This document shows positions 1 through 13,897 of a stretch of 16,242 nt of DNA, piece after piece (position 1 is the stretch's first letter; each line of letters begins with the position of its first letter). The notes beneath the pieces are model-generated. The model did no database searches and was not told where the DNA came from. It saw only the letters and a list, made by a program, of their open reading frames with translations. The position numbers and the translations under genes were made by a program. Origin of the DNA: Chloroflexota bacterium (GTDB taxonomy: Bacteria > Chloroflexota > Dehalococcoidia > Dehalococcoidales > UBA2162); assembly GCA_016202525.1 (NCBI GenBank), contig JACQOM010000128.1, forward strand, positions 1-16,242. Direction: 5' to 3'.

Positions 1-500
1 CTGCCAGTTACCAGTTCTACGCCGATGGGAAGCTGCTCAAGGAGGGGATTACTACCATCGCCCCCGGCTTCGGTAAGAGTTATAAGTATGCTTATGAAAG
101 TCACTTGCCGCTGGGGGAACGGATGAACTTTCTGGTCAGGACCGAATCGGCAGAGGGAGATTACGAGGTATCTCTATCCACGCCGCCGTATCCTCCTCAT
201 ATCTGGAGTAGCTTTGTCAGTTTCGCCTCCTTTTCGACATCGGTGATGAGCTTTATGGCCACCATGACCTATTACCAGAGTGCCTTTGGCAACGGCGTGG
301 GATTCAATGTGGGACTGCTCTATACTGTTGTCCTTATTGCTCTGCTCATTTTCTTGGAGTTGAGCCAGCCGCTGCTTCAAGGGAAGACTTTTATTGTCTT
401 GAGGAGACTGAGGATAAGGTTTAACATGGTTACCTGGCTATTGTTCATCATCTTCATGGGGATAGTCTATACCAGGGTGGTGATGATTCTTACCGGCTGA
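1..500 (+). CDS. C-terminal part of a multi-pass membrane protein (5' end outside window)
   Basis: The frame is open from base 3 to a TGA at 498-500, so the gene begins upstream of the window; TTG at 105 and ATG at 123 are internal. The visible 165 residues begin with a soluble, beta-rich-looking stretch (about residues 1-60, containing QFYADGKLL). Three hydrophobic segments follow: roughly SSFVSFASFSTSVMSFMATM, VGLLYTVVLIALLIFL and TWLLFIIFMGIVYTRVVMIL. The product therefore ends in the membrane with a short tail. I do not recognise the family. It is followed by the glycosyltransferase gene after 52 bp on the same strand, which suggests a shared envelope-related operon, but this is inference from spacing only. 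Confidence 0.7.
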   Translation, partial: ASYQFYADGKLLKEGITTIAPGFGKSYKYAYESHLPLGERMNFLVRTESAEGDYEVSLSTPPYPPHIWSSFVSFASFSTSVMSFMATMTYYQSAFGNGVGFNVGLLYTVVLIALLIFLELSQPLLQGKTFIVLRRLRIRFNMVTWLLFIIFMGIVYTRVVMILTG

Positions 501-552
501 TGGTTCGACTCCGCTCACATGAAAATAATCTTTGCCATGAGGTAAACTCTGG

Positions 553-1527
553 TTGATGCAAGGCGTAAGTATTGTCATCCCGGCCTATAACGCCGAGCTT
601 ACACTTAAGGAGTGTCTGCAAGCGATGACAACTCTCAGGTGGGATGGCGAACTCGAAGTTATCGTAGTCGATGACGGCAGCACCGATAAGACCTCTGGTA
701 ATGCTATCTCTTTCTCCGGAGTCAGGGTTATCGGTATCTCTCACGGGGGAGCGGCAAGGGCAACCAATACCGGCATCAAGGCGGCGCGATATGATATTGT
801 GGTTTTGTTCGATGCCGATGCCGTGCCGGAAGAAGGCTGGCTGAAGAAGATGATTCCTTCTCTGGGTGACCCTTCGGTGGGCGCCGTGGCCGGCTCGGCG
901 GTAACGGCCAACAGGAGTATCATCGGCCGGATTGCTGGCTATGATGTGGAATGGCGTATCAGGCGTATTTCGGGGGATACCGACCATCTCTCGACATTGA
1001 ATACTGCCTACCGCCGCGAGGTTCTGCTTGAAGTCGGGCTGCTTACTGAAGAGTTGAAGGCAGGTTATGACGTCGACCTGAGCCGCCGGTTGAGAGCCGC
1101 CGGTTATCGCCTGCTCTTGAGGAAAGATGTTAGCTGCCGTCACTACTGGAAGGATGACCTCAGGGAGTATCTCCGCCAGCAATACAACTATGCTTATTAT
1201 CGTATGGAGTTGACACGGCGCTTCGGCAAGCCCCATGACCGTGTTGCCGGGCTGGGGATGGTTTTGCAGGTCCCCTTTACGGTACTCATCCTTCTTTTGG
1301 CTGTATCCGGCAGTCTGGTATCTCCTTGGGCGCCGCTACTACTTTTCTCACTGCCTCTCATTCACCTGCCGGAAACCTTTTCTTTACTCTACAAAAGGAA
1401 AAAATTAAGCCTGCTTCTTCTGCCGTTGCTCTTTACGGTGAGAAATCTTGTCTGGGTGTGGGGGGCTGTGAGGTGGGGGATAGGTAAAGTACCCCTGCCG
1501 GGACTCGAACCCGGGCACACGGTTTAG
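553..1527 (+). CDS. Family 2 (GT-A) glycosyltransferase with C-terminal membrane anchor
   Basis: Transfers a sugar from a nucleotide-sugar to an unknown acceptor at the inner face of the membrane, as GT2 enzymes do. The GT2 signatures are visible: SIVIPAYNA (residues 6-14), VVDDGSTD (38-45), the metal-binding DAD (87-89) and an acceptor-region motif GYDVDLSRRLRAAG (171-184). Two or three hydrophobic segments follow (about 236-253, 256-275, 285-305). The start may be TTG 553 or the adjacent ATG 556; GAGG lies at 539-542. Residues 313-324 and the stop codon are antisense to the tRNA-Arg gene, so the last dozen residues (VPLPGLEPGHTV) are tRNA sequence and not a domain. The stop at 1525-1527 falls inside the attachment-site repeat. 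The substrate cannot be read from sequence. Confidence 0.9.
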   Translation: MMQGVSIVIPAYNAELTLKECLQAMTTLRWDGELEVIVVDDGSTDKTSGNAISFSGVRVIGISHGGAARATNTGIKAARYDIVVLFDADAVPEEGWLKKMIPSLGDPSVGAVAGSAVTANRSIIGRIAGYDVEWRIRRISGDTDHLSTLNTAYRREVLLEVGLLTEELKAGYDVDLSRRLRAAGYRLLLRKDVSCRHYWKDDLREYLRQQYNYAYYRMELTRRFGKPHDRVAGLGMVLQVPFTVLILLLAVSGSLVSPWAPLLLFSLPLIHLPETFSLLYKRKKLSLLLLPLLFTVRNLVWVWGAVRWGIGKVPLPGLEPGHTV

Positions 1528-1562
1528 GAAACCGCTGCTCTATCCGCCTGAGCTACAGGGGC
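1490..1562 (-). tRNA. tRNA-Arg (anticodon CCU), intact copy at the left element junction
   Basis: Read on the minus strand, the sequence folds as a 73-nt cloverleaf. The acceptor stem GCCCCTG/CAGGGGT has a terminal G-U, the D arm is GCTC/GAGC, and the anticodon stem GCGGT/ACCGT has the 7-nt loop TTCCTAA. The variable loop is 4 nt, the T arm is CCGGG-TTCGAGT-CCCGG, and the discriminator is A. The anticodon CCU reads AGG. CCA is not encoded. The 5' half (tRNA nt 1-39) is the attachment core and is duplicated at 10532-10574; the 3' half is chromosomal. Everything upstream of the tRNA is now element DNA, with the integrase stop codon 48 bp away in the same orientation. Expression may therefore depend on element transcription. 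It overlaps the end of the convergent glycosyltransferase gene by 38 bp. Confidence 0.95.
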
Positions 1563-1566
1563 ATGA
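1524..1566 (-). repeat. attL core: 43-bp direct repeat within tRNA-Arg
   Basis: The sequence is identical base for base to 10532-10574. It covers tRNA nucleotides 1-39, from the 5' end through the anticodon loop, plus four bases upstream. Identity stops immediately on both sides (t versus a at the left, a versus t at the right). Because the identity block begins in the anticodon loop and runs toward the 5' end, strand exchange probably occurs at or near the anticodon stem-loop. This copy is attached to the chromosomal 3' half, so the tRNA here is complete. Confidence 0.93.
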
Positions 1567-1605
1567 AGCTAAATTAAGAGTTTGCAACGCCGTTATGTTT
1601 ACTTC

Positions 1606-1625
1606 TGGCGTTAATTTGGCGTTAA
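1606..1625. promoter_or_regulatory. Left integrase arm-type sites (two 9-bp direct repeats)
   Basis: Two copies of TGGCGTTAA sit 11 bp apart, about 40 bp inside the left core, overlapping the last codons and stop of int. The same 20-bp block recurs exactly at 10406-10425, 107 bp inside the right core. Paired direct repeats near both ends of an element whose integrase has an N-terminal arm-binding domain are the expected layout of arm sites. The assignment is by position and repetition, not by binding data. Confidence 0.7.
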
Positions 1626-2765
1626 TACTATTTTCTTGTCCTGTTTTACCCCGGCGGGTAGCACTTCGTCCAGTAACGCCATAGCATCCTCTTGCATCCC
1701 ATCAATTATATGAGAATACACATCCATAGTAAAGGCTACGCTGGCATGTCCAAGAGCCTCGGAGATAACTTTCGGCTTTGCGCCACGCATCAGCATCAAT
1801 GAGGCGAATGTATGCCGCAAGTCATGGAAGCGGCATCCTGAGATACCGGCGTGTGCTGCCATCTTGTGAAAATTATGAGTTATCACTGACGGGTTAAGCG
1901 GCTCTCCCGATATACTGGTGAATACCAGGTCATCCAAGCTGAGTATCTTCCCTAATTCCAGGTACAACACTTCACGACAAGCCCGGTAGTCCTTCAAGAA
2001 CAAGGCTAATTTCGGCGTCAATCTGACACGGCGCCGGCTATGGCTTGTCTTAGGCTCTTTGAACTGGGATATGCCCCGGCGCTTGTATAGCACCTGGTTA
2101 ACCGATAGTGAGAGAAGGTCGAGGTCAATATCACGCCACCTTAACCCTAATAGTTCGGCCTCTCTAAGTCCAGTGCTCACGGCGGTGTAGACTACCGGGT
2201 AATAGTAGTTACCCTGTGCGTTCTCAAGAAGGGCCGTAACTTCTGAGGGGGTCAAGCTACGCATGACCTTCTTACGTGGTGAAGGTGGGTCAACCATCTC
2301 AGCAGGATTATGGCCTAGATAACCCTGTCTCACGGCGTATTTTAACGACTGAGATAACACCCTATGGTGATGGTGTACCGTCCTTGCTGATAGCTTCTCG
2401 CAAGCTTTGCCGTAATAGTTCTGAATTGCCTGGGGGTTAAGGTTCTTTAGTTGGACTTGACCTAAAGCTGGCATTAAGTGGGTCTCTATGATGGACTGAT
2501 AGCCGTCAAGAGTGCGTTGTGAGCAGTTGGTCTTAACGTAGCCTTCAAGCCAGTTATGAAGGTGCTCGGTCACTGTAAGGCGTCCCGGTGGGGTATATAC
2601 GCCTTTGTCAAGGCTAGATAGTAGTTCGGTTAATCGCCTTTGGGCGTCACCTTTACGGCCTCTTACCGTCTCAAAGTGTCTGCGGGGCTTACCGTCCGGC
2701 CCGGTGCCAGTGTAAATTTGAATCTGCCACGAGCCTCTACTCTTTTCACGTATGCTACCTCTCAT
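1611..2765 (-). CDS. int: Tyrosine recombinase (integrase) of the element
   Basis: Catalyses site-specific integration and excision between the tRNA-Arg attB and attP. The protein is 384 aa, the usual length for phage and ICE integrases. It has an N-terminal AP2-like arm-binding region (about 1-50, SWQIQIYTGTGPDGKPRR), an SAM-like core-binding domain (about 65-145) and a catalytic domain (170-365). The catalytic residues are R201 (TGLREAE), K239 (KTSHSRR), H314 and R317 (FHDLRHTF), H340 (LGHAS) and the nucleophile Y350 (MDVYSH). All are present, so it should be active. Its ATG overlaps the stop of the upstream excisionase-like gene (ATGA), implying translational coupling. The stop codon lies inside the left arm sites, and the tRNA-Arg follows 48 bp downstream with no evident terminator between. 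Confidence 0.96.
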   Translation of the reverse strand: MRGSIREKSRGSWQIQIYTGTGPDGKPRRHFETVRGRKGDAQRRLTELLSSLDKGVYTPPGRLTVTEHLHNWLEGYVKTNCSQRTLDGYQSIIETHLMPALGQVQLKNLNPQAIQNYYGKACEKLSARTVHHHHRVLSQSLKYAVRQGYLGHNPAEMVDPPSPRKKVMRSLTPSEVTALLENAQGNYYYPVVYTAVSTGLREAELLGLRWRDIDLDLLSLSVNQVLYKRRGISQFKEPKTSHSRRRVRLTPKLALFLKDYRACREVLYLELGKILSLDDLVFTSISGEPLNPSVITHNFHKMAAHAGISGCRFHDLRHTFASLMLMRGAKPKVISEALGHASVAFTMDVYSHIIDGMQEDAMALLDEVLPAGVKQDKKIVLTPN

Positions 2766-2935
2766 TTGGCGCCTCCTTTTGGCTTCCTTTTCCTGATATA
2801 ATCTAGGTCTAGCACTACCCAGTCGTGCCCTAGCTTCTTGGCTCTAATAAGTCCAGTTCTTGCTAACAATCTAACGTGGTCTTGGGACAATCCCAATTTC
2901 TCGGCAGCTTCTTTTGTCGAGTATATACGTTCCAT
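2762..2935 (-). CDS. Excisionase-like helix-turn-helix protein (57 aa), coupled to int
   Basis: A short gene beginning ATG at 2935 and ending with TGA at 2762-2764, overlapping the int start by 4 bp. The product starts MERIYSTKEAAEKLGLSQD and continues with HVRLLARTGLIRAKKLGHDW and VVLDLDYIRK. This is the MerR-like winged HTH_17 pattern: Y-S-T-K-E-A-A-E-K-L-G-L-S recognition unit, then a wing around KKLGHDW and a terminal helix. Small proteins of this family directly upstream of int act as recombination directionality factors or int regulators. No Shine-Dalgarno sequence precedes it: the promoter -10 box ends 8 bases before the ATG, so the mRNA would be leaderless. Excisionase function is inferred from fold and position; a pure repressor role is possible. 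Confidence 0.85.
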   Translation of the reverse strand: MERIYSTKEAAEKLGLSQDHVRLLARTGLIRAKKLGHDWVVLDLDYIRKRKPKGGAK

Positions 2936-2943
2936 ACTTTAGT

Positions 2944-2972
2944 ATTATAACTGTTATCAGTTATAATGTCAA
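2944..2972 (-). promoter_or_regulatory. Consensus sigma-70 promoter of the xis-like/int operon with palindromic operator
   Basis: On the minus strand there is TTGACA (2972-2967), a 17-bp spacer and TATAAT (2949-2944): a perfect consensus promoter. The spacer and -10 box form a palindrome, ATTATAACTG / CAGTTATAAT with 4 bases between (2944-2967). A dimeric repressor bound there would cover the promoter. The likely start site is at 2938-2937, only 2-3 bases before the ATG at 2935. Promoter call high confidence; operator function inferred. Confidence 0.88.
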
Positions 2973-3009
2973 GAGAGAAACAAACTGGAAGTGATGCGGC
3001 GGGAAGAAA

Positions 3010-3039
3010 TTGACTGAGGCAGAACGTTTGTGTTATATT
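3010..3039 (+). promoter_or_regulatory. Promoter with extended -10, divergent from the int operon
   Basis: TTGACT (3010-3015), an 18-bp spacer ending in TGT, and TATATT (3034-3039) give an extended -10 promoter. The -10 context TTGTGTTATATTGGGAC matches the chromosomal promoter before the CheB/CheR gene (TTGTGTTATAGTGGGAC at 13886-13902) at 16 of 17 positions, which supports recognition by the same sigma factor. It would start transcription near 3046 into a long region without a clear gene. Confidence 0.7.
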
Positions 3040-3045
3040 GGGACA

Positions 3046-3471
3046 AAGCAGTACATTTACAATTGAATAGAGCAAGGTCAAGCTGCCAGGAGAGACACCA
3101 ACGTATCTGGAGGTTGGCGAGTAATCTTCACTAATCGGGCACTATGCCGGAAACAGAAGGGCGTAAAAATATATCCCCGGCTGAAGAAGGCAAACCCCTC
3201 GGATTCTGGAGAGAAACGACCCAACTTCGGGTCCGTATGGCTTTCTCACACGCTGGAATTTCTTGACCCTCAATGACGGAGAGTGACAACTTAGTATCAG
3301 TAAGTCGTGACCAATATATCTTGGTTGTGTTCGATGTTCCGATTAACGACTTTCTCTTCTGACGAAATCATGCTTCGCTTGAGGCAATAGGGTTTCAGGG
3401 GAAACTGTTAAGTAAGACTTTGCGCAGGTGATAATCTGCGCTTAGTTTTTGTTTCCCCGAACCCCTTTTTT
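3046..3471 (+). ncRNA. Candidate structured non-coding RNA or long regulated leader (about 425 nt)
   Basis: The region is bounded by the extended -10 promoter and a nested hairpin with T-run at 3390-3471. No open frame in it has a start with a ribosome site. A 40-codon frame at 3144-3266 (MPETEGRKN...) lacks one, and a longer open frame at 3067-3276 has no ATG, GTG or TTG. Local hairpins include GACCC/GGGTC around an AACTTC loop (about 3218-3235) and ACCAA/TTGGT (about 3309-3324). I do not recognise tmRNA, RNase P, SRP, 6S or group I/II intron landmarks. Alternatives are an untranslated attenuator leader of the replication operon or degenerate coding DNA. Confidence 0.4.
3390..3471 (+). terminator. 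Nested intrinsic terminator
   Basis: The outer stem pairs 3390-3405 (with GGGGAAAC at 3398-3405) with GTTTCCCCGAACCC at 3451-3464, with small bulges, and is followed by TTTTTT at 3466-3471. It encloses an inner hairpin GCGCAG (3422-3427) / CTGCGC (3436-3441) with an 8-nt loop and its own T-rich tail (TTAGTTTTTG). Either could end transcription, and the two pairings are compatible. It lies between the promoter at 3010 and the next gene at 3556. Confidence 0.7.
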
Positions 3472-3475
3472 ATTT

Positions 3476-3522
3476 GAGCCGACTAAAGCAGATACGTACC
3501 TGCAAGTCGGCTCTTTTGTTTT
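3476..3522. terminator. Intrinsic terminator just before the replication operon
   Basis: A perfect 9-bp stem GAGCCGACT (3476-3484) / AGTCGGCTC (3505-3513) encloses an inner GCAG/CTGC pairing and is followed by TTTTGTTTT. It lies 42 bp before the first replication-operon start codon, and no promoter is recognisable in between. The operon is thus probably reached by readthrough or antitermination. Confidence 0.75.
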
Positions 3523-3555
3523 GGCTGCTGAAAAATTACAGGAGCAAAGAACGAA

Positions 3556-3753
3556 ATGGAAAAAGACGAAAGGTTGACAATGACTATCCCTGAGTTCGCT
3601 CAGGCTACCGGTATTTCAAGGAATTTAGCGTATTCCCTGGCCAGACAGGATTCATTGCCTGTCGCTGTAATCAAGCTGGGGCCAAAGCGCATGGTGCTGA
3701 GTCGCAAGGCTGTCTTAGCATTGCTTCAAGACAATAAAAAGCTGGAAAGCTAA
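3556..3753 (+). CDS. Small HTH_17/excisionase-family DNA-binding protein (65 aa)
   Basis: The product carries one MerR-type helix-turn-helix (about residues 9-55): a TIPEFAQATGISRNLAYSLA helix pair, a wing around IKLGPKRMVLS, and a final helix RKAVLALLQD. Proteins like this act as excisionase or as transcriptional regulators of mobile elements; as first gene of the replication operon it could autoregulate the operon. ATG 3556 is preceded by AGGAG at 3540-3544, a rather long spacing of 11. The next gene starts 19 bp after its stop. It resembles the other two HTH proteins of the element in fold but not closely in sequence. Confidence 0.82.
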   Translation: MEKDERLTMTIPEFAQATGISRNLAYSLARQDSLPVAVIKLGPKRMVLSRKAVLALLQDNKKLES

Positions 3754-3772
3754 AACAGGAGTGAGAGAAAGA

Positions 3773-3961
3773 ATGAAGGACTTGAGGAAAGTTGATTTTC
3801 AAGATAAACAGTTGACCTGTACTGATTGTGATGCCACTTTTACATTCACTAAAGGCGAACGATTTTACTACGCTTCAAAGGGACTATGCGAACCTAAACG
3901 TTGCCCCAACTGTCGGCTAAGGCGAAAGCTCACTCTAGTTAGAGAAGGGGGTGAGCTATGA
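3773..3961 (+). CDS. Small zinc-ribbon protein (62 aa)
   Basis: It contains the pattern of the probable zinc-ribbon domain found in many bacterial and element proteins: LTCTDCDATFTFTKGERFYY (residues 14-33), then KG..EPKRCPNCR. The four predicted zinc ligands are C16, C19, C44 and C47. I chose ATG 3773 (AGGAG at 3757-3761) over GTG 3761, because GTG 3761 overlaps that ribosome site. Its stop overlaps the ATG of the large replication protein by 4 bp (ATGA), so the two are translationally coupled and probably made in fixed ratio. The fold suggests nucleic-acid or protein contact; the exact role is unknown. Confidence 0.8.
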   Translation: MKDLRKVDFQDKQLTCTDCDATFTFTKGERFYYASKGLCEPKRCPNCRLRRKLTLVREGGEL

Positions 3962-6279
3962 CTTTGGAGAAGCACCACATTGAACAGCTACAAAGCAGTG
4001 CTATATCACCTGAGATAATTGCCGAACGCGGGTATCGCTCTATTACTAATAAGAGTGAGTTGGCCGGTCTGGGTTTTAGTAGCTCACAACAACGTGTGCC
4101 TGGGCTGTTGATTCCGCAATGGGGTGTTGATGGCAAAGAAACAGGCTATCAATACCGGCCTGATAATCCCCGCACGAACGGTAAACATAAGGCGATTAAA
4201 TACGAGAATCCTACCGGTGGCAGTATTCGTCTGGACTGCCCGCCACGCTGCCAGAAGATGCTTGGTGACCCGTCAATTCCGTTGTGGATTACTGAAGGCA
4301 GCAAGAAGGCGGATGCCCTGGCTTCGCATGGAGCCTGCGCTATTTCGCTGACTGGTGTTTGGGGCTTCAAAGGCAAAAATGAGCTTGGTGGCATTACTAT
4401 GCTGGCCGACTGGGATTATATCGCTCTCAAAGAGAGGCTGGTATACCTGGCTTTTGACTCAGACATTGTTGATAAGTCTGCGGTGAAAAAGGCACTGCAA
4501 AGGATGGCGCAACACCTTGAAACCAGAGCGGTTATCGTCAAAATTGTGCGACTACCCAGTAGCAACGGGGCAAAGGTTGGCATTGATGACTACCTGGCTG
4601 CCGGGCATACCCTTGCCGATGCCGAGGCTCTTAGTGAAGCGCATGAAGCCGATGTAGAGGAGCAAACTATCAGGCGTCCTTATTTCTACTACGATGGCAG
4701 ACTGTATCTTCAGGTTAAGATGGTTGATGGTAAAATGGCCTTTGCCTATCTTGATGGGGGAAAGGTAAAGTATGCCGAGGCGCTTCCAATTGGGAACGGC
4801 CGCAATGTGGTTCCGCAATTCCTGCCAAAAGGCGAGGATAGTGTAGAACTCGACCTTGTTGGTTTGCCCGATGAGGGGATTGCCGCCACCGCATTACTCA
4901 ACTCTGCCGAACTATTCGAACGGATAAAGGGTTATATTAAGAGGTATGTTGACCTGGACCCGCTAGACCTGGAGCTTTGTTGTTATTACAGCCTGTTTAC
5001 CTGGTTCTATCGTAAGGTCAACACTTTGGGCTACTTACGGTTCATTGCTGACACCGGCAAGGGGAAGACGAGGGCGCAGAAGGTCGTGGGGGATTTATGC
5101 TTCTATCCTTTCCATACCAGCGGCGCCAGCAGTTTTAGTGGCATGGCCCGAACTAGCCAACATTGGAGGGGCACGCTGATTATGGATGAGGCTGACATGG
5201 ATGGAGATATGGCTAGTCAAGTTATCAAGTTCTTAAACCTGGGCTTTGAACGGGGCCAGTATTACGTTCTCTCCGATAAACAGAATCCCCGACTACAGCA
5301 GTACTTCGACCCCTTCATGACGAAGATTTTGGCGATGCGGAAACCATTTCCGGATAATGCCACTGAGGGCCGATTGCTCAGCATTACCACCTACGAAACT
5401 ACAAACTTGGACATTCCGATACTACTACCCCCCGAATATCCTGCTGAAGTTGAGACATTGCGTAACACTATCGCTCGGTTCGTTCTGGAATACTGGGATA
5501 AAGTTGATGGTAGCAAAATGACCGACTTTAGACACTTACCTATCGAACCACGATTAAAGCAGTTGGCTATGCCGCTGTCTATCATCTTTCAGGTGTGGCC
5601 CGATGGGGTAGAGCAGTTTGAAGATTATCTGCTCGCACGCCAGAGGGAATTGAGACGTGCGAGGTCAACATCCTGGGAAGGCACGCTCTTTAACCTTGTT
5701 TACTCTATCGCTGTGGGTGACATAGACCTGAAGGATTCTTTCCTTGAGTATTATTCTCAGGGCGGGAATATCGAGGCCATAACTCCGACTATGATAGCCA
5801 AGCAAATGAGCAGCAAGCCGAAGTCAATAACACAGGGACTAACAAGCATTGGCTTCGAAGTGGAAAGCCGAAGGTTACCATCAGGCAATAAGAAACCGAG
5901 GCTCTACTGTGTGCCGGATGCGAGGAAGTGGCGGGAAGTGGTATCCAGATATTATTACTCTGAAGATGATGCCCCCCCAGCCGAAGCTCCAGAGGTATTG
6001 CGCGGTTCGAAATATATCGTGTTCCCTGAACCGTCCCAAGTGTCCCAAGTGTCCCCACCGCTTACAAAACCTGCCGCACCAAAGGAAACGGGGACGGATG
6101 GGACGGATGGGACACTTACCGGCACACGGAATAATGGCTATGATGACACAACGGGTATGCCGGACTATCCAACTAAGCCGTGTTTCAATTGTAAGGGTAT
6201 TGCTTTCTGGCCTGATTTTAAGAATAAACGCTGGATATGCTCACGCTGTCACCCAAAGCCAGAGGCGAACAATGTTTAA
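3958..6279 (+). CDS. Replication protein: DUF3854/TOPRIM-like domain plus P-loop ATPase (primase-helicase type)
   Basis: 773 aa. The N-terminal third shows the TOPRIM-like arrangement of DUF3854 proteins: ITEG (111-114), a nucleotide-region glycine GVWGFKG (133-139), FDSD (166-169) and GIDDYL (208-213). The middle has a P-loop ADTGKGKT (364-371), whose first Gly is Ala, and a Walker B TLIMDE (406-411), as in DnaB/SF3-like replicative ATPases of elements. A helical, probably winged-helix region follows (about 600-660), then a low-complexity linker (680-730) and a C-terminal zinc ribbon with C742, C745, C761 and C764. This order fits a protein that primes and unwinds the excised circle. Start at ATG 3958, coupled to the zinc-ribbon gene. 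The linker DNA contains 9-bp iterated repeats (6033-6113). A helicase-only or integrity-checking role cannot be excluded. Confidence 0.85.
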   Translation: MTLEKHHIEQLQSSAISPEIIAERGYRSITNKSELAGLGFSSSQQRVPGLLIPQWGVDGKETGYQYRPDNPRTNGKHKAIKYENPTGGSIRLDCPPRCQKMLGDPSIPLWITEGSKKADALASHGACAISLTGVWGFKGKNELGGITMLADWDYIALKERLVYLAFDSDIVDKSAVKKALQRMAQHLETRAVIVKIVRLPSSNGAKVGIDDYLAAGHTLADAEALSEAHEADVEEQTIRRPYFYYDGRLYLQVKMVDGKMAFAYLDGGKVKYAEALPIGNGRNVVPQFLPKGEDSVELDLVGLPDEGIAATALLNSAELFERIKGYIKRYVDLDPLDLELCCYYSLFTWFYRKVNTLGYLRFIADTGKGKTRAQKVVGDLCFYPFHTSGASSFSGMARTSQHWRGTLIMDEADMDGDMASQVIKFLNLGFERGQYYVLSDKQNPRLQQYFDPFMTKILAMRKPFPDNATEGRLLSITTYETTNLDIPILLPPEYPAEVETLRNTIARFVLEYWDKVDGSKMTDFRHLPIEPRLKQLAMPLSIIFQVWPDGVEQFEDYLLARQRELRRARSTSWEGTLFNLVYSIAVGDIDLKDSFLEYYSQGGNIEAITPTMIAKQMSSKPKSITQGLTSIGFEVESRRLPSGNKKPRLYCVPDARKWREVVSRYYYSEDDAPPAEAPEVLRGSKYIVFPEPSQVSQVSPPLTKPAAPKETGTDGTDGTLTGTRNNGYDDTTGMPDYPTKPCFNCKGIAFWPDFKNKRWICSRCHPKPEANNV
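6033..6113. repeat. Three-by-three 9-bp spaced repeats in opposite orientation inside the replication gene
   Basis: GTCCC occurs at 6033, 6042 and 6051, and GGGAC at 6091, 6100 and 6109, each set exactly 9 bp apart. The unit AAGTGTCCC is found twice on the left, and its complement GGGACACTT once on the right. They encode SQVSQVS and TDGTDGT in a linker. The symmetric arrangement could act as iterons or a cruciform at an origin; simple codon-level repeat expansion is the alternative. Confidence 0.6.
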
Positions 6280-6317
6280 GGGAAGCAAAGAGGCTAGTGA
6301 GGGGGGGGAATACTCGG

Positions 6318-6617
6318 ATGACTGACAAGAGGCTTCAAAACAACCCACCACGAGGGACAGAACGGGTTAAGGGACTGGTGGTAGGGCAGGACTGGCGAGT
6401 TGGGGCGGATAGCTTGAATATCATCCTTTACCGGCGTCAGGTTAATAATAAGACTGGTAAGGAATACTGGCGGGCACACAGCTATTATGCTATTGTTGCT
6501 AATGCCCTGGTAGGACTGGTCAATCAGGGTGTTAGAGATACGGAACTGGCAGAGCTGAAGGCAGTTTGCGACAAGATAGACGAGCTACGCAGAGATATTT
6601 TCAAGGTATGCTCTTAA
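6318..6617 (+). CDS. Hypothetical protein (99 aa) of the replication operon
   Basis: ATG 6318 follows a purine-rich site containing eight consecutive G at 6301-6308, which must serve as the Shine-Dalgarno sequence. The product is soluble, with a central WRVGADSLNIILYRR segment, an aromatic EYWRAHSYYAIVANAL segment and a C-terminal amphipathic helix (TELAELKAVCDKIDELRRDI). It lies 38 bp downstream of the replication protein and looks like an accessory protein of that operon. I do not recognise the family. An earlier in-frame ATG at 6237 lies inside the replication gene and has no ribosome site. Confidence 0.72.
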   Translation: MTDKRLQNNPPRGTERVKGLVVGQDWRVGADSLNIILYRRQVNNKTGKEYWRAHSYYAIVANALVGLVNQGVRDTELAELKAVCDKIDELRRDIFKVCS

Positions 6618-6735
6618 TGTTACCCAAACTATCGAATCATAGTGAAACAGGCATGGTGACAGGCGTGAAATACAAGGTTAATTGATGATAATTCCCTAAT
6701 GATTTCGTTAAAAAGTAAAAAGACGGAGGTCGTAA

Positions 6736-7362
6736 TTGGGCGGAGCGGGTTCTGGACGCAGGTATAGATACGATGCAAAGGAAACAACGAGTGGTTTAAT
6801 AAGTCTCGATGTGAACTATCTGAAACGAAATGGTAACTTCGCTTCTAATCAGCTATCGTATATGACCTGGTCACGAGATAACGAGGCCACTTGTACCATA
6901 AACACGAGAATGGAAGGTCTGTACTTGGTGCTGGGATACAGGCGCCGGCTCCGGGATGGGGATTGGCAGGGTAGTGAAGAGAGTGTGCTACTTTCGTACA
7001 CCTCATGTAACTATGGCGGTCGGCGTCCCTGGTTTATTTGTCCTGGAGTAAAGAATGGTGTTCCCTGTCAGAGAAGGGTGGCTAAACTGTATGCGGCAGG
7101 CAGTTATTTGCTTTGTCGGCATTGCTACAACCTTGCTTACGATTCCCAGAGGGAAGCATTACGGCATCGTCTGTTGTACAAGGCGCAGGACATCCGGAGG
7201 CGTTTGGGTGGTTCGGCTGATATGGGAGCGCCGTTTCCCTGGAAGCCGAAAGGGATGCACTGGAAGACTTACGAGAGACTACGGCGAAAGGCGGAGCAAG
7301 CTGAGCTTCGCAGTGACGGCATGTTGGGTGAGTGGATGATGGCACGGTTCGGAATCTCATAG
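6736..7362 (+). CDS. MGGxGSGR-type zinc-binding protein of mobile elements (208 aa)
   Basis: The product starts MGGAGSGRRY, a conserved N-terminus in an uncharacterised family common near integrases and in phage-like elements. This supports the rare TTG start at 6736, which has GGAGG at 6725-6729. Ending each half of a presumed zinc site are C102 and C111, then C127 and C130 (LLCRHCYNLAYDSQRE), followed by a basic helical tail with RRRLGG and KPKGMHWKTYERLRRKAE. The basic tail and zinc knuckle suggest nucleic-acid binding. The function is not established. The gene follows the 99-aa gene by 118 bp and ends the rightward block; the next gene is convergent. Confidence 0.8.
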   Translation: MGGAGSGRRYRYDAKETTSGLISLDVNYLKRNGNFASNQLSYMTWSRDNEATCTINTRMEGLYLVLGYRRRLRDGDWQGSEESVLLSYTSCNYGGRRPWFICPGVKNGVPCQRRVAKLYAAGSYLLCRHCYNLAYDSQREALRHRLLYKAQDIRRRLGGSADMGAPFPWKPKGMHWKTYERLRRKAEQAELRSDGMLGEWMMARFGIS

Positions 7363-7436
7363 CGACTATCTTAGCTCATAAACAAACGTGATGACTTTTA
7401 GCTTCACACCGCGCCCTGGGGGTGGGATACCCCACG

Positions 7437-7461
7437 TACCTCAGATTCCGAAGGGGGCCGC
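7437..7461 (+). repeat. Left copy of an imperfect inverted repeat flanking a lipoprotein gene
   Basis: Begins TACCTCAGA and ends GGCCGC. The reverse complement of 8148-8175 begins TACCTCAGA, ends GGCCGC, and differs in between by small indels. A short GTGGG-ATAC-CCCAC hairpin lies immediately to its left, between the convergent genes. It may be part of a dispersed palindromic repeat family or a transcription-end structure. Confidence 0.5.
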
Positions 7462-8073
7462 TTATTTTCCGATTTCGTTGAGTGGTTTATCGGGCAGACT
7501 TTTCAAAGTTTCTTCTATGGATTGTGCCTCTTTCCAGAACTTTAGGAGTTTGCTATCCTCTCGCGGTGTCCAGGGCGTCCCAGTGTACCAGGCAGGGCGG
7601 TATTGTAGGTCTATGCCCAATTCCTGTCGCAACCCGTCTACATAATCATACACCTTCTTATACGCTAACAGATGCTGTTGTTTGAAGTCATTTTGATAGA
7701 TATAGTCGTCCGGTGCCCAAATCAATTTCGGGGGCTTTCCGTCTTCCCACATCACAGCGCGGAGTGAGGAATACTCCTGTAAGTTATCGATAAATTCAAT
7801 TGCGGCAGCCTCTGAAAAGTAGATTTCATGGAATCTCTGACCGAGTTCCTTCATATCCATTCCCCCAGCTCTCATTTCACTCTCAGCTTCAATAAGTCGA
7901 GACTCAGTTATTGTAGTAAGTGAATTCATTTCGTGTAGATAGTCAGCGGCCGCCGCAAAGAATTGCTGGGCTGCCTGTTCTTTAGCAGTTGGCTGATTAC
8001 TGCAACCTAATATTGGAAACGCTGTTAGCAGAATTAGTGACAACATAGCGAATGAGGCATACTTCAATTTCAT
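7462..8073 (-). CDS. Predicted lipoprotein of unknown function (203 aa)
   Basis: The N-terminus has a basic start (MKLK), a hydrophobic stretch and the lipobox ILGC with C24, so it should be lipidated and held on the outer face of the cytoplasmic membrane. The mature part is helical and acidic (AAADYLHEMNSL, EAESEMRAGG, KLIWAPDDYIYQ, WYTGTPWTPRED). No catalytic motif is recognised. ATG at 8073 is preceded by AGGAG with good spacing. It stands alone, 187 bp from the next minus-strand gene and flanked by imperfect inverted repeats, so it may be a separate cargo cassette. Confidence 0.8.
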   Translation of the reverse strand: MKLKYASFAMLSLILLTAFPILGCSNQPTAKEQAAQQFFAAAADYLHEMNSLTTITESRLIEAESEMRAGGMDMKELGQRFHEIYFSEAAAIEFIDNLQEYSSLRAVMWEDGKPPKLIWAPDDYIYQNDFKQQHLLAYKKVYDYVDGLRQELGIDLQYRPAWYTGTPWTPREDSKLLKFWKEAQSIEETLKSLPDKPLNEIGK

Positions 8074-8147
8074 TCACATCTCCTTTCACTGAAAACCTTA
8101 CAACACCTGATATTTTCACCGGATGTAGTAATCGTCACCCCCCGGGG

Positions 8148-8175
8148 GCGGCCACCCACCTCGAATTCTGAGGTA
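8148..8175 (-). repeat. Right copy of the imperfect inverted repeat, in a GC-rich spacer
   Basis: Partner of 7437-7461 in inverted orientation; it also contains its own small hairpin ACCTC/GAGGT around GAATTC. The surrounding spacer (8074-8260) holds a C5G5 palindrome at 8139-8148 and G-runs at 8176-8181, 8193-8195, 8198-8202 and 8204-8206, which could form a G-quadruplex on the plus strand. No gene is seen in this spacer. Confidence 0.5.
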
Positions 8176-8260
8176 GGGGGGAGTCATAATCAGGGTAGGG
8201 GGAGGGAGACCCCAGTATTATCAGAAAGGAAGCATAAAAGCCCTAAAGCGGTCAAGCCTC

Positions 8261-8494
8261 CTATGAGTTATCCTTCAGACTTGCGAGAACGATTAGTCCG
8301 ATGGGTGATAACAGGCCCCAAAACATATGAGTCCATCGCCTATTCTTTAATTTTGCCCAAAGATACGTCCCCCACAGGATAACACCCAAACCGATAACCC
8401 ATCCGATGAGGCTTGAGTTACGGGAAATCAGCAGGATTAGACACCCCGTAATAACCAGGAACGTTCTCCGCCGCTCTAGCGATTTTTTGTTCAT
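8261..8494 (-). CDS. Small membrane protein (77 aa), last gene of the nuclease operon
   Basis: Predicted segments are a basic start (MNKKSLERRR) and then three hydrophobic stretches at about 11-24, 28-47 and 55-72. ATG at 8494 is preferred to the upstream in-frame ATG at 8551, because AAGG lies just before it and the upstream codons overlap the preceding gene. It begins 14 bp after the stop of the 60-aa membrane gene. No family recognised. Confidence 0.65.
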   Translation of the reverse strand: MNKKSLERRRTFLVITGCLILLISRNSSLIGWVIGLGVILWGTYLWAKLKNRRWTHMFWGLLSPIGLIVLASLKDNS

Positions 8495-8508
8495 TTTGAC
8501 CTTCTCTC

Positions 8509-8691
8509 CTACCAAAGCCAGAGATTTGCCAAGATTAGAAGTAGCATCCATATACCAGCGCCAATTATTGCATAGACTTTCCAGTGAGGCTCAGTGGGCT
8601 TACCAGCACCTAAAACCCAAGCTGGAATATGAGCAGCATTGAAAAACAGAGAGCCTATAATAAAAAGGATAATAAATAGTGCTATTTTCAT
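8509..8691 (-). CDS. Small membrane protein (60 aa)
   Basis: Two hydrophobic segments (about 1-18 and 39-59) flank a short loop with HIPAWVLGAGKPTEPHW. ATG at 8691 follows a GAGG site. It begins 51 bp after the thermonuclease stop and 14 bp before the next small membrane gene, so it belongs to the same minus-strand operon. It could anchor or protect an envelope complex, but nothing in the sequence states its function. Confidence 0.62.
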   Translation of the reverse strand: MKIALFIILFIIGSLFFNAAHIPAWVLGAGKPTEPHWKVYAIIGAGIWMLLLILANLWLW

Positions 8692-8742
8692 ATCCTCATC
8701 ACCTCAATTATCGGGGCTGCTATCTGCCACCTGCTTTTTATC

Positions 8743-9297
8743 TTATTGACCCCATATCCCTCGTTGTCTCAGCTTGGCATATTGTTCCAATTGCACTAAG
8801 GTCTGACTATACCAATCATCGGGGTCGAATATCGAAGCCCTGGCATAGCCTTCGGCAACCAGTTCAGCGTTAACAAAAGTGCCGTCTACATAGACGTATC
8901 TGAGTAAGCGACCATACTCATCAAGGTCACGGCTACCCTTCTGTAAGTAGACTTGCTTCCCTTCAACCAATTCCTTGTTGCGTATTGTGGCTTCGGGGCC
9001 GAAGGGTTGCACCGGCTTATCAGGATGCACGGTCTCCGGGGTGTCAATGCCCAGGTAACGCACATGAAGACCATTCTGTAATTCAATGGTGTCTCCATCA
9101 ATCACCCTGGAGACAATAGCCGTTTCATACGCCGGTATGCTGGCATGATGCCAAACGGAATAGCCAATACCCAAACCAGCACTAATGCCCAGTAATAAGG
9201 CTATGACTAGCCAGAGACTATTTAACTTGTATCTGGCTAGGGGAATTAACGATAATCTCGGCAGAGCCTTTATAGGGTTCAATAAGCCCATAAACAT
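8743..9297 (-). CDS. Membrane-anchored thermonuclease (staphylococcal nuclease family)
   Basis: A calcium-dependent sugar-nonspecific nuclease by family. With the start at 9297 (AGGA 6 bases upstream) the protein has 184 aa: a basic N-terminus, one membrane segment (about 27-47, WLVIALLLGISAGLGIGYSV) and an SNase domain to the end. The active-site set known from the S. aureus enzyme is complete: D69 (VIDGDTIEL), R80 (VRYLGIDTPE), D85, T86, E88 and R130 (DEYGRLLRY). The domain should face outside the cytoplasm. The gene overlaps the upstream OB-fold lipoprotein gene by 80 bp; starting at ATG 9291 or TTG 9281 would only shorten the overlap. Cargo of the element; the substrate is probably extracellular DNA or RNA. 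Confidence 0.9.
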   Translation of the reverse strand: MFMGLLNPIKALPRLSLIPLARYKLNSLWLVIALLLGISAGLGIGYSVWHHASIPAYETAIVSRVIDGDTIELQNGLHVRYLGIDTPETVHPDKPVQPFGPEATIRNKELVEGKQVYLQKGSRDLDEYGRLLRYVYVDGTFVNAELVAEGYARASIFDPDDWYSQTLVQLEQYAKLRQRGIWGQ

Positions 9298-9688
9298 AAA
9301 TAGTCCTACCTTTATACTGAATTTCGGGAGCGGGAGAGAACTTGCTACGGTCACTGCCCCAAATGACGACTGTGAAGCGGGCGGGGTCTGGATAGTTCTT
9401 GCCTACATTCAGGAAGGTGGGTTGTCCTTTACTACTACTGGCATAAGTCGCACCGATTACTGGCCCATAGACCGTTGTCTTTTCGCCAATATGGTTTATC
9501 GCTTCTGACCAAGGAATGGCGGTCGCTGCCTGGGTTACTGGTGCGCTTGTGGTCGGTGTTGTTTCTGCCTGCTGAGTTTGAGCGGGCGGTGGCGTTGTTG
9601 GTGCTGGCTGACAAGCCACAACCGAGCTAGCTAATAGAAGAACTAATCCAATGAGTAAGAGTGAGTGCCATTTACGCTTATTCTCCAT
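9218..9688 (-). CDS. OB-fold-like lipoprotein upstream of and overlapping the thermonuclease gene
   Basis: 156 aa from ATG 9688, chosen because AAAGGAGG lies 6 bases upstream; the in-frame ATG at 9754 lies upstream of the transcription start. The signal peptide ends in the lipobox VVAC with C26. A Pro/Thr/Gln linker (27-58) is followed by a compact domain of about 100 residues: WSEAINHIGEKTTVYGPVIG, TFLNVGKNYPDPARFTVVIWG, GRTIYVYGLIEPYKGSAEII and SQIQVK. Strand pattern and motifs resemble OB-fold nucleic-acid-binding domains that are elsewhere fused to SNase domains in secreted nucleases (YhcR-type). It likely captures nucleic acid or positions the nuclease at the cell surface. The OB assignment is from pattern only. 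Confidence 0.8.
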   Translation of the reverse strand: MENKRKWHSLLLIGLVLLLASSVVACQPAPTTPPPAQTQQAETTPTTSAPVTQAATAIPWSEAINHIGEKTTVYGPVIGATYASSSKGQPTFLNVGKNYPDPARFTVVIWGSDRSKFSPAPEIQYKGRTIYVYGLIEPYKGSAEIIVNSPSQIQVK

Positions 9689-9741
9689 TATTGCCTCCTT
9701 TTGTTCTCTTAATTGGCTTTGGAGCAATATCAGGTGATGAC

Positions 9742-9770
9742 ATTGTAAGAGCATGGACTGCCAGTGTCAA
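9742..9770 (-). promoter_or_regulatory. Promoter of the OB-fold lipoprotein/thermonuclease operon
   Basis: On the minus strand there is TTGACA (9770-9765), a 17-bp spacer and TACAAT (9747-9742). The start site would be near 9735, giving a 5' untranslated region of about 47 nt before ATG 9688. This is a strong sigma-70-type promoter for the four-gene minus-strand block down to 8261. Confidence 0.8.
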
Positions 9771-9885
9771 TCTATCTATATCAATTAGAAACTGTTAATA
9801 GCAGGGTATAGCAATCAAATACTATCAGTGCCTTTGCTTCTCCGCATTGGTAACATTAGTCTCAAACTGCGGGAGGCGATTGCCA

Positions 9886-10068
9886 ATGCAACCAGAACCA
9901 AAGAAAGTTGAGCGGATATTTTATACTTTCCAAGAAGCCCAGGAGTTTCTAGGAATTAGTCATCAGACGATATACGAGCTTATGAAGCAGGGGCTTCCTT
10001 CTCACAAGATTGGTAGGAAACGGGTCTTCTTAAAGGAAGACCTTGTCCGGTGGATAAATGAGCATTAA
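9886..10068 (+). CDS. Small HTH_17/excisionase-family DNA-binding protein (60 aa)
   Basis: The product is MQPEPKKVERIFYTFQEAQE..., with a MerR-like HTH: FLGISHQTIYELMKQG, a wing SHKIGRKRVFLK and a terminal helix EDLVRWINEH. ATG 9886 is preceded by GGGAGG at 9871-9876; the earlier in-frame GTG at 9847 lacks a ribosome site. It is the third such protein in the element and stands alone near the right end, divergent from the nuclease operon. It may be the true excisionase, a repressor of int, or a regulator of the nuclease operon. The spacer to its neighbour (9689-9885) contains the lipoprotein promoter; no clear promoter for this gene is seen. Confidence 0.82.
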   Translation: MQPEPKKVERIFYTFQEAQEFLGISHQTIYELMKQGLPSHKIGRKRVFLKEDLVRWINEH

Positions 10069-10405
10069 GCTTGAAGCGCATTGATTAGGCTAAAAGTCTT
10101 AGATGCTGTAACAGGCGGGACGATTTACTGCCTGAGGGGGTAAGGCCGGGCTACGGCACGGAGCGCACTAACACTTTATGTATGTGGCTTCCTGTCTCCT
10201 GCCAAAGGACATAAGACTTGTTAGTGCGCTGGGGTGGTATCGTCTCTTCGTGGGGTGGGCTGACCCGTAGGGTGAGCAGGTCGGCGAAGGCTGACCGCTC
10301 CTACTCTCCTACCGGTGAGCCTGAGCAAGTGGGGGACGTTGATTGCGGGTGCTGTCAAATTCACGTTACCATTATCGGCTCACGCTTAAAGTGAAGCTAG
10401 AGTTT
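10069..10405. other. Non-coding right end of the element
   Basis: No open frame with a plausible start is seen. The segment holds a large imperfect palindrome (10163-10229) and a 7-bp inverted pair GTGAGCC (10315-10321) / GGCTCAC (10377-10383). It lies between the last HTH gene and the integrase arm sites. Such placement suits an origin of replication or transfer, or a structured RNA, but no relaxase or known nick-site motif is recognisable. Confidence 0.55.
10163..10229. repeat. 67-bp imperfect palindrome
   Basis: Outer arms GCGCACTAACA (10163-10173) and TGTTAGTGCGC (10219-10229) pair perfectly over 11 bp. After a small asymmetric bulge, TTATGT (10176-10181) pairs with ACATAA (10209-10214), leaving a 27-base loop. 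There is no T-run on either side, so it is unlikely to be a simple terminator. Candidate origin, transfer site or protein-binding structure. Confidence 0.7.
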
Positions 10406-10425
10406 TGGCGTTAATTTGGCGTTAA
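10406..10425. promoter_or_regulatory. Right integrase arm-type sites
   Basis: Exact 20-bp copy, in the same orientation, of 1606-1625: two TGGCGTTAA units 11 bp apart. It lies 107 bp inside the right core repeat. Together with the left copy it frames attP in the circular form, as expected for a recombinase with an arm-binding domain. Confidence 0.7.
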
Positions 10426-10515
10426 ACTGCCGACAACGGATTGTTACCAGATGGTATTTTAGCTTTGAGAGCCAAAACACAAAATAACTGTTTTGAAGCT
10501 AAAGCTACCCTTTGA

Positions 10516-10574
10516 TACCCCTAGCCTGGAATTAGGAAACCGCTGCTCTATCCGCCTGAGCTACAGGGGCATGA
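10516..10574 (-). pseudogene. attR: tRNA-Arg 5' half joined to a degenerate tRNA 3' end
   Basis: Bases 10532-10574 repeat the 43-bp core (tRNA nt 1-39). On the element side, minus-strand bases 10531-10516 read TTCCAGGCTAGGGGTA. The last eight, TAGGGGTA, could close an acceptor stem with GCCCCTG and resemble the true 3' end CAGGGGTA. The variable loop and T arm are missing, so this is not a functional tRNA. It looks like the element's own partial tRNA copy from attP joined to the old chromosomal 5' half. Confidence 0.75.
10532..10574 (-). repeat. attR core: 43-bp direct repeat
   Basis: Identical to 1524-1566. Chromosomal DNA resumes at 10575. The 90 bp between here and glgC should contain the original tRNA-Arg promoter; a -10-like TAAAAT on the minus strand at 10604-10599, 29 bases upstream of the tRNA 5' end, fits but has no convincing -35 box. 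Confidence 0.93.
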
Positions 10575-10665
10575 TTCCGGGGTAGCGATAGTTTTACTAT
10601 TTTACCATTCGTCAGGGTAACAAGGCTAGTAACGCATGGTGGACTGGGGTATCAATCGCTAGTAC

Positions 10666-11919
10666 TCAGATTGAATCGATATCCGCGCCCCGGGGAACGA
10701 CCACGATGCCATTATCCGAAACTGTGCAGCCTCTCCGCCGGTCAGCCTCCAGGTCATAGCCAATCGTGACGCCGGCCCTGATTTTGGACTCCTTATCGAT
10801 AATGGCGCGTTTGACCCTGGCTCCAGGCTCGATGATGACATCATCAAAGATTACAGAGTCTTCCACTGAAGCATCCCTTTCGATAACTACTCCCGGGGAG
10901 ATTACGGAATGCTGTACCAGGCCGCCGCTGATGATGCAGCCATCGGCCACGATTGATTCCAGAGCTTTGCCCCCGATGACGTATTTGCTGGGGGGGAGCG
11001 ACCTTTCATAGGTGCGGAACCCCCATTTTTCACCATAAAGATTGAATAGCGGGTCTACCATTATCAAATCCATGCTGGCTTCATAATAGGAATCTATCGA
11101 GCCGACGTCCCGCCAGTAAGTTGAATCACGTGTTTTCTCCACCAGAATCTTCTTTCTTTTCCCGTTTTCGACTTCAACCACATAGTCCTCAATCTTGTTG
11201 TTTTCGGTGAAGTCATAGACAAAGATGTCTGACCACTCTCTGGTCAGCCCGGCAATTATATCTCTGCCGAAATCATCCCCCGTCCGTTTCAGGATATCCA
11301 TCAGGGCATCGACTTTGAAGATGTAGATACCCATTGAAGCCAGGACAAAGTCCGGAGCCTGTGGCATTACTCTGGGTTGGGCCGGTTTCTCGGCAAAGCC
11401 AATAGCTCTCATATCCTGGTCTACTTCGAATATACCCAGACGTTGCGCCGCTTGCTCCTTTCTCGTCCTGGTGGCGGAGACAGTCAGGCGTGCCTTCTTA
11501 GCCCGGTGATACAGCAGCATTTGTTGATAGTTCATTTTGTATACGTGGTCTCCTGAGAGAACCAGTATATCGTCAAAACCCTCGGTGATAAGGTCGAGGT
11601 TCTGGCGGATGGCGTCAGCCGTGCCTTGATACCAGACCGCCCCCACTTTCTGTTGGGCGGGGACACAATAGATAAATTCTCCCAGCCTTGAAGCGGAGAT
11701 GCCCCAGCCTTCCTGGATATGCGTCTGCAGAGACCATGACCGGTATTGAGTAAGAACGAAGATTTGGCGGATGCCGGAGTTAATGCAGTTACTGAGTGGA
11801 AAATCGATGAGGCGGAATTTGCCAGCAAAAGGCACGGCTGGCTTGGAGCGCACCTGAGTTAAGGGCTGTAGCCTGTCGCCCATCCCCCCGGCCAGTATAA
11901 TCGTCAATACTCGGTCCAT
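10666..11919 (-). CDS. glgC: Glucose-1-phosphate adenylyltransferase (ADP-glucose pyrophosphorylase)
   Basis: Makes ADP-glucose from ATP and glucose-1-phosphate, the committed step of bacterial glycogen synthesis. 417 aa, the normal length. The nucleotidyltransferase domain has ILAGGMGDRLQPLTQVRSKP (residues 8-27), WYQGTADAIRQN (96-107), LSGDHVYKMNY (120-130), GFAEKP and YWRDVGSIDSYY. The C-terminal left-handed beta-helix shows hexapeptide-like repeats (IVADGCIISGG, SVISPGVVIE, SVEDSVIFDDVIIEPGA). ATG at 11919 follows a GAGG site. It is divergent from the phosphorylase gene, which supports a glycogen module. Its product ends 91 bp before the element's right repeat. Confidence 0.96.
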   Translation of the reverse strand: MDRVLTIILAGGMGDRLQPLTQVRSKPAVPFAGKFRLIDFPLSNCINSGIRQIFVLTQYRSWSLQTHIQEGWGISASRLGEFIYCVPAQQKVGAVWYQGTADAIRQNLDLITEGFDDILVLSGDHVYKMNYQQMLLYHRAKKARLTVSATRTRKEQAAQRLGIFEVDQDMRAIGFAEKPAQPRVMPQAPDFVLASMGIYIFKVDALMDILKRTGDDFGRDIIAGLTREWSDIFVYDFTENNKIEDYVVEVENGKRKKILVEKTRDSTYWRDVGSIDSYYEASMDLIMVDPLFNLYGEKWGFRTYERSLPPSKYVIGGKALESIVADGCIISGGLVQHSVISPGVVIERDASVEDSVIFDDVIIEPGARVKRAIIDKESKIRAGVTIGYDLEADRRRGCTVSDNGIVVVPRGADIDSI

Positions 11920-11974
11920 GCCAACCTCGACAAATTAACATCGTTATCTGTTTGTCCTTCCCTCTGGGATTTAC

Positions 11975-12002
11975 ATTATAAAGGACTGTGGACGATAAGT
12001 AA
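11975..12002 (-). promoter_or_regulatory. Putative glgC promoter
   Basis: On the minus strand, TTACTT (12002-11997), a 16-bp spacer and a perfect TATAAT (11980-11975), about 55 bp before the glgC start codon. The -35 box is weak. It lies in the 205-bp divergent region shared with the phosphorylase gene. Confidence 0.55.
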
Positions 12003-12124
12003 AATCCTGGTCGATAAATTTTGCCACGGATTTTATTGCCATCTGATACTAACATTGCAGTTTTGCGGAGTTTGCGCTTTAATGTTTTACCATAAGCTTG
12101 GAATATAACGTTTAAGGAAGCTTT

Positions 12125-13840: not shown

Positions 13841-13868
13841 CAAAACCAACCATACCCGGACAACAGCG

Positions 13869-13897
13869 TTACTGTACATGTAAAATTGTGTTATAGT
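13869..13897 (+). promoter_or_regulatory. Extended -10 promoter for the CheB/CheR gene
   Basis: TTACTG (13869-13874), 17-bp spacer ending TGT, TATAGT (13892-13897). The -10 context is almost identical to the element promoter at 3010-3039. The leader to ATG 13971 would be about 67 nt. Confidence 0.7.

Follow-up and report, generated by a model that had tools for sequence, protein, structure and literature searches.

When a mobile element enters a tRNA gene through the front half of that gene, the intact tRNA receives its 5' flank from element DNA, which raises the question of where transcription of the tRNA then begins. We address this for a stretch of 16,242 nucleotides (nt) from a Chloroflexota bacterium of the Dehalococcoidia (assembly GCA_016202525.1, contig JACQOM010000128.1, positions 1 to 16,242; the whole stretch is hereafter called the window), in which a 9-kb element carries a tyrosine recombinase gene, int, directly upstream of an intact tRNA-Arg(CCU). 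Based on this locus and comparisons to related junctions, we propose that the element very likely replaces the tRNA promoter with a sigma-70-type site, TT[T/C]ACN-N17-TATAAT, embedded in int itself.

Layout of the element and its tRNA target

The element is bounded by a direct repeat of 43 nt at 100% identity (Table 1), which on the minus strand reads as a 4-nt leader followed by the tRNA 5' half, ending in the anticodon loop, as the preliminary description of this DNA had stated. The tRNA was recognized as intact (ARAGORN and Rfam, 63.2 bits, with the lower boundary at 1489 or 1490) and is the sole tRNA found in the window. A full tRNA at one end, a 5' fragment in the same orientation at the other and an integrase in-between constitute the layout of a tRNA-targeting island of the 5'-fragment kind, with 48 nt separating int from tRNA nt 1 on the same strand. 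The int product (PF00589, 2e-24) remains a complete open reading frame (ORF) while integrated, and R201, H314, R317, H340 and Y350 are invariant across 27 aligned homologues; we take these to be the catalytic residues of tyrosine recombinases, Y350 being the catalytic tyrosine.

The compared junctions show this arrangement to be the work of a Dehalococcoidia integrase family, which duplicates the tRNA 5' half up to the anticodon loop and leaves the intact tRNA directly downstream of int. The 5' flank of the intact tRNA is then element DNA, and the old 5' flank stands at the far end of the element. Homologues of int are numerous (3467 proteins at E<=0.001 among 7998 scored candidates; 119 others among the matches listed are 76-91% identical), and the matches in the phage collection (3086 records) are all below 60% identity. 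A genome scan by int protein similarity yielded 53 loci, 48 of them with a same-strand tRNA at most 250 nt downstream. The exceptions are L013 and L043 at contig ends, L022, also at a contig end with a partial tRNA-Thr visible, L053 with 34% identity, and L021. In L021 int is 68% identical and has the internal site described below, a non-tRNA ORF comes next, and a tRNA-Thr lies 1.3 kb downstream. None of three viral-contig loci had a downstream tRNA, the closest, L054, ending soon after int.

With further genomes, 90 distinct int/tRNA junctions representing 11 anticodons were collected (Thr-CGU 26, Arg-CCU 12, Leu-UAA 12, Ser-UGA 10, Arg-UCU 7, Arg-UCG 6, Trp 5, Lys-CUU 5, Ser-CGA 3, Phe 2 and Met 2), after merging junctions that share the last 60 nt and skipping tRNAs preceded by another tRNA at a distance below 60 nt. 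The int gene is intact in 32 and truncated in 42; contig-edge (9) and broken (7) loci were left out of intact/truncated comparisons. Since a match to either of two int peptides, one of which covers residues 328-335, was a condition of the first scan, retention of the last 40 int codons is not evidence alone. Five tRNA genes of a single genome (G002, L215-L218 and L233: Arg-UCU, Ser-UGA, Leu-UAA, Lys-CUU and Thr-CGU) have element-type upstream DNA. Close relatives also occur in bins titled Phycisphaeraceae or Deltaproteobacteria (L013, L022, L040, L042), through binning error or transfer.

Eight of 49 loci (48 and the window, many contigs stopping before the element's end) and seven of 12 longer regions have a far copy of the tRNA 5' half, i.e. 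14 loci in total, as L001 is in both sets (the window, L001, L002, L007, L014, L019, L020, L031, L051, L091, L094, L097, and, with mismatches, L098 and L027). In 13 of the 14 this copy stops at tRNA nt 37-40, at the 3' side of the anticodon loop, and in L019 at nt 30; L051 has only nt 10-40 in common. Lone 5' halves ending at nt 39-42 were detected with the window tRNA in four of eight genomes (G461, G318, G196, G003). The far flanks of L014, L020 and L001 resemble older junctions, with an int tail or a TAGCTTC motif before the half tRNA, and therefore point to repeated integration at one tRNA.

An empty site in relatives, to which the preliminary description had looked for the native flank, was found, and it settles one side. 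The unoccupied locus in G484 has the same glycosyltransferase as the window (68%) and an intact tRNA-Arg(CCU), with no element and no int match. Positions 4-1566 of the window align to 4161-2614 of the unoccupied locus L252 at 70%, and 23 nt upstream of the L252 tRNA a TTGCAG-17-TAAAAT site with an extended -10 (TGCTAAAAT) was seen by eye. DNA upstream of this tRNA gave no alignment above shuffles to either window flank. Since GlgC has no match at L252, this locus confirms the 3' side only and by itself favours neither window flank as the native one. Among 156 genomes, a search with GlgC revealed no empty site in synteny (16 listed matches, from 15 genomes) and one with the glycosyltransferase protein a one-sided site in two; when the class sample was widened to 393 genomes, the latter protein had no match at E<=1e-60. 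A search of the plasmid collection with the right flank (10532-11700) found no match. Counted by sequence identity, not anticodon, a match of at least 85% to the window tRNA-Arg(CCU) over nt 1-73 (1-61 in G484) occurs once in seven of eight related genomes and twice in G001; of these two full-length matches (L267, L268), one lies behind a short int fossil (L214).

A promoter-like site within the int gene

Of 31 ordinary tRNAs of related genomes, 16 have a TTGACA/TATAAT-type site at p<=0.05. These tRNAs, a non-random set unscreened for element junctions, represent 30 loci that ranked among the best Rfam matches of eight genomes; L048 was omitted from the promoter scan. In the promoter (DISPLACEMENT) comparison, under a scheme that counts extended -10 boxes and was settled after seeing some flanks, the displaced flank outscores the tRNA-proximal junction in all nine non-tandem pairs, and p<=0.05 is reached by seven of nine far flanks vs none of the nine near junctions. 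Examples are TTGACA-17-TAAAAT (L091), TTGACA-17-TAGAAT (L097) and the extended -10 of the window's own displaced flank (TGGTAAAAT, p=0.013). Under an earlier scoring scheme the far flank exceeded the near junction in only 6/9 pairs with one tie (p=0.11), and the window was reversed. The number of truncated loci at p<=0.05, 3/20 in one set and 6/14 in a subset of it, was disregarded, as borderline cases are unstable with 100 shuffles. The near score takes -10 boxes ending at most 32 nt from the tRNA, the int interior lying outside the near scans. Seven of the nine pairs have an intact int, whereas that of L019 is broken and that of L031 truncated; the tandem pairs L001, L014 and L020 were excluded, and L051 and L027, with truncated int and partial or mismatched copies, are not among the nine. 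Judged by these promoter-like sites, the original promoter appears to have been displaced, in agreement with the preliminary description, which held that the element had replaced the promoter side of the tRNA, and with the recurrence of the layout across the family.

Within int, TTTACT-N17-TATAAT reads into the tRNA with 10 of 12 consensus matches, overlapping codons 345-354 (FTMDVYSHII) including Tyr350. The form TT[T/C]ACN-N17-TATAAT is present in 23/23 intact ints of at least 65% identity; synonymous-codon shuffles lead to an expectation of 0.21 of copies (maximum 0.36), and it occurs in 1 of 31 ordinary tRNA upstream regions (80-260 nt). All 90 junctions entered this site count and 86, having the 240 nt upstream that is needed, the promoter survey. 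Among 195 degenerate conserved codons with a mean third-base conservation of 0.61, the sole invariant third bases are those of H352 (CAT) and I353 (ATA), both in the -10 box and identical in all 23 intact ints, followed in third place by F345 of the -35 box (TTT in 22), with T346 at about the 28th (ACA in 18, ACT in 4). That three of the four hexamer third bases should be the top three has, by our arithmetic and with shared ancestry ignored, a chance of about 3e-6. With conserved hexamers near TTGACA and TATAAT 17 nt apart, within the 16-18 nt expected of a sigma-70 promoter, the int-embedded site is strongly inferred to be the replacement promoter.

The site is also retained in decayed copies, in 35/42 truncated and 5/7 broken loci, and in 7/9 contig-edge loci, at a distance of 99-150 nt from the tRNA. 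Considering only positions at least 90% conserved in intact ints, in a codon-based alignment that made no use of the promoter score, 6/391 hexamer cells (1.5%) are changed in truncated loci vs 200/2498 other cells (8.0%; Fisher p=1.3e-7), a test weakened by the shared ancestry of the cells, which makes the p-value nominal. Per position, the change is 0.015 in hexamers vs 0.083 in others (p=7e-5), and 0.059 when only nearby positions are taken (p=6e-4). The contrast to the spacer is modest, conserved positions there having changed in 0-11% vs 0-6% per hexamer position. Tyr350 is replaced by C or H in 5 of 36 truncated copies.

Several observations weigh against a promoter inside int. The site was picked out after data inspection, and none of the nine intact ints below 65% identity (of the 32 intact) has it. 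Three Ser-CGA loci and one Ser-UGA locus have TATAAT or TAAAAT at a distance of 9-10 nt from the tRNA, and TTGCTA-17-TAAAAT is common to three Lys loci at a position further upstream; apart from the Ser-CGA loci, most site-less intact loci lack a clear promoter. The subfamilies without the site are Lys-CUU, Ser-CGA and some Arg. Seven of the 42 truncated loci are site-less, too: a strong junction site is present in L160 and L185, another candidate site in each of L162 and L218, and no strong alternative in L214, L167 or L031. The implied leader of about 100-150 nt compares to significant sites ending 8-16 nt before the gene in ordinary tRNAs, in a search that covered only 3-30 nt upstream. L021 carries the site without an adjoining tRNA.

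Other sources of tRNA transcription

The preliminary description had proposed readthrough of the int operon, which would tie tRNA supply, and thereby the decoding of AGG codons, to the state of the element and favour its retention. Its observations at this locus hold: int ends 48 bp upstream of the tRNA in the same direction, a search of 1300-3100 gave no terminator-like site (against a mean of 2.2 in shuffles), and no good promoter is seen in the gap. The window also has a 12/12 consensus promoter-like site ahead of the xis-like and int genes. However, such a promoter reaches p<=0.05 in only 6/31 intact loci, and readthrough from a strong int promoter was dropped as a general mechanism. The 42 truncated loci keep the tRNA though much of int is lost, 35 of them with the conserved promoter-like site, which lies in the last 40 int codons, downstream of int's own promoter. 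Transcription of the tRNA mainly by readthrough, with decoding dependent on the element, is therefore unlikely. Favoured retention is doubtful as well: once the element is precisely excised, the native tRNA should again stand behind its native promoter, for which reason no addiction to the element is seen. The last stretch of int, not the element, would become hard to lose.

A site adjoining the tRNA could alternatively be the main promoter, in weaker form in intact copies, which we regard as improbable. Junctions of the family carry TAGACA-N17-TANAAT 8-11 nt ahead of the tRNA, in the same register as the promoters of ordinary tRNAs, and in the main group this site is strong (>=9.5, a post hoc threshold) in 15/34 truncated loci. 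Many later loci were found with a model favouring consensus junctions, so that the fair counts are those of main-group loci found by protein alone, 0/20 intact vs 7/14 truncated (Fisher p=6e-4). Against this, none of the 21 intact main-group copies is strong, and the best -10 ending 3-30 nt before the window tRNA, TAAACA-N17-CTTAAT, matches the consensus at 8/12, a level that 34% of shuffles attain. Rank tests give weaker results (p=0.05 in the protein-found main-group set, p=0.18 over all loci and p=0.23 over all loci in an earlier version), and outside the main group the tendency is reversed (3/11 intact, 0/8 truncated). Complementarity between internal and junction sites is unclear (37 vs 5 loci, mean junction score 8.28 vs 8.80). 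The counts hint that decay of int may be followed by an improvement of the junction promoters; as a general rule this was rejected, in view of the post hoc threshold and the non-significant rank test over all loci, and it is kept as a side observation. Some junctions, not all, have an imperfect palindrome, GACATAAYGTC, which overlaps the -35 of this second site and is a possible operator.

That codons 345-354 are conserved as a protein-binding or recombination site in DNA, or through codon usage, is hardly probable: the end of an integrase gene beside att could hold accessory sites and L021 retains the motif without an adjoining tRNA, but the hexamers are of sigma-70 type at an exact 17-nt spacing, synonymous shuffles yield the site in 21%, and it is kept in truncated copies unable to make a whole recombinase, with Tyr350 lost in five of 36.

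Further features, known systems and proposed mechanism

The features of the locus are compiled in Table 1. The 23-nt repeat near both element ends is inferred to be a recombinase arm site. TTTAGCTTC is located just ahead of the tRNA (1567-1575), as it is at many junctions of the main group, and at several far ends the half tRNA is followed by DNA resembling TTCTAGGCTAAAA; both are possibly recombinase or accessory sites. A 23-nt inverted repeat (3045-3067 and 6184-6206, 87% complementary) flanks the primase-like gene region. The ORF scan between the repeats, which covered the larger ORFs, identified int, two excisionase-like helix-turn-helix (HTH) proteins, a DUF3854 protein with primase-like PHROG hits, a replication-initiation-like ORF and a nuclease, with no relaxase among the matches of these ORFs. 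No tandem arrays were found in the window.

Table 1. Positions of the tRNA, integrase and associated elements in the window.
Feature	Position	Strand	Remark
tRNA-Arg(CCU), intact	1490..1562	minus	5' half from element, 3' half native; 3' flank aligns with unoccupied locus L252
att repeat copy, int end	1524..1566	minus	TCAT + tRNA nt 1-39
int-tRNA gap	1563..1610	minus	weaker promoter-like TAAACA-17-CTTAAT, in register with family consensus TAGACA-17-TANAAT
Arm-type repeat, int end	1603..1625	minus	TTAACGCCAAATTAACGCCA, overlapping int stop
int, tyrosine recombinase	1611..2765	minus	384 aa
Proposed tRNA promoter within int	1705..1733	minus	-35 TTTACT 1733-1728, 17-nt spacer, -10 TATAAT 1710-1705
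Excisionase-like HTH_17 ORF upstream of int	2761..2935	minus
Consensus promoter-like site ahead of xis-like/int genes	2944..2972	minus	TTGACA-17-TATAAT, 12/12
Arm-type repeat, far end	10403..10425	minus	same 23-nt repeat
att repeat copy, far end	10532..10574	minus	displaced tRNA 5' half
Displaced tRNA flank	10575..10665	minus	extended -10 TGGTAAAAT at 10607-10599

Integration through a tRNA 5' half is already known from archaeal pTN3 and from 159 islands in Islander. As described in passages of Cossu et al. 2017 (PMC5495485) and PMC8371274, the pTN3-like integrases of archaeal Thermococcus also separate the rebuilt tRNA from its original promoter, and the window shares the tRNA 5' half as attB and, by its sequence features, a displaced promoter. 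In those accounts integration disrupts the integrase gene and the described site is a tRNA-Leu. In contrast, the window int is whole, a complete 384-aa ORF when integrated, on which ground membership was rejected, and the family has a bacterial sigma-70-like site in the 3' codons of int, uses 11 anticodons and keeps the site in truncated copies. The Islander survey gives 3760 islands with a 3' tDNA fragment and 159 with a 5' one (passages of PMC4383910), and in Sinorhizobium meliloti a 5'-end match is given for 9/88 insertions (passages of PMC11476347). With its displaced 5' fragment the window element resembles this minority class; a single integrase family with int reading into the tRNA is not described in those passages, and the word "promoter" was not found in the two main texts.

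Mycobacteriophages with tRNA-dependent lysogeny (passages of PMC10865867) likewise compensate the effect of integration on an essential host tRNA. The phage carries a whole tRNA gene, whereas the window element restores the gene and would supply its promoter; membership was rejected, as the target tRNA is rebuilt and is the only one in the window. Dehalococcoides genomic islands belong to the same class and have tRNA or tmRNA targets (passages of PMC3146451, ssrA, and PMC2764846, tRNA-Arg/Ala). According to these passages the insertions involve either the T-loop of ssrA or, in tRNA-Arg and tRNA-Ala, 3' fragments, unlike the tRNA 5' half used in the window, and the ssrA islands are linked to serine recombinases (PMC3146451), int being a tyrosine recombinase. 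Among the open-licence literature matches listed, no title or abstract opening describes an int-embedded tRNA promoter in bacteria.

We propose that the family operates as follows. The element would supply a sigma-70-type promoter within the catalytic-tyrosine codons of int, 104-150 nt upstream of the tRNA. RNA polymerase would start in int and transcribe the int tail and the spacer into the tRNA, and RNase P would presumably trim the long leader of the precursor. The embedded promoter would be independent of int's own promoter, and therefore the last part of int could be kept as a tRNA promoter after element decay, selection on tRNA supply preserving the int fossils.

In conclusion, it appears likely, as read from the aligned junctions, that the codons of the catalytic tyrosine also serve as a promoter, one that takes control of a host tRNA after integration, that after element death selection for tRNA expression keeps this stretch, and that many Dehalococcoidia tRNAs are transcribed from integrase fossils. 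This suggests how a tRNA may stay active although its front half, and not the back half favoured by most elements, serves as the target. The signal is a DNA-level constraint overlaid on highly conserved recombinase codons, and it points to host regulatory DNA derived from dead mobile elements at many tRNA genes.
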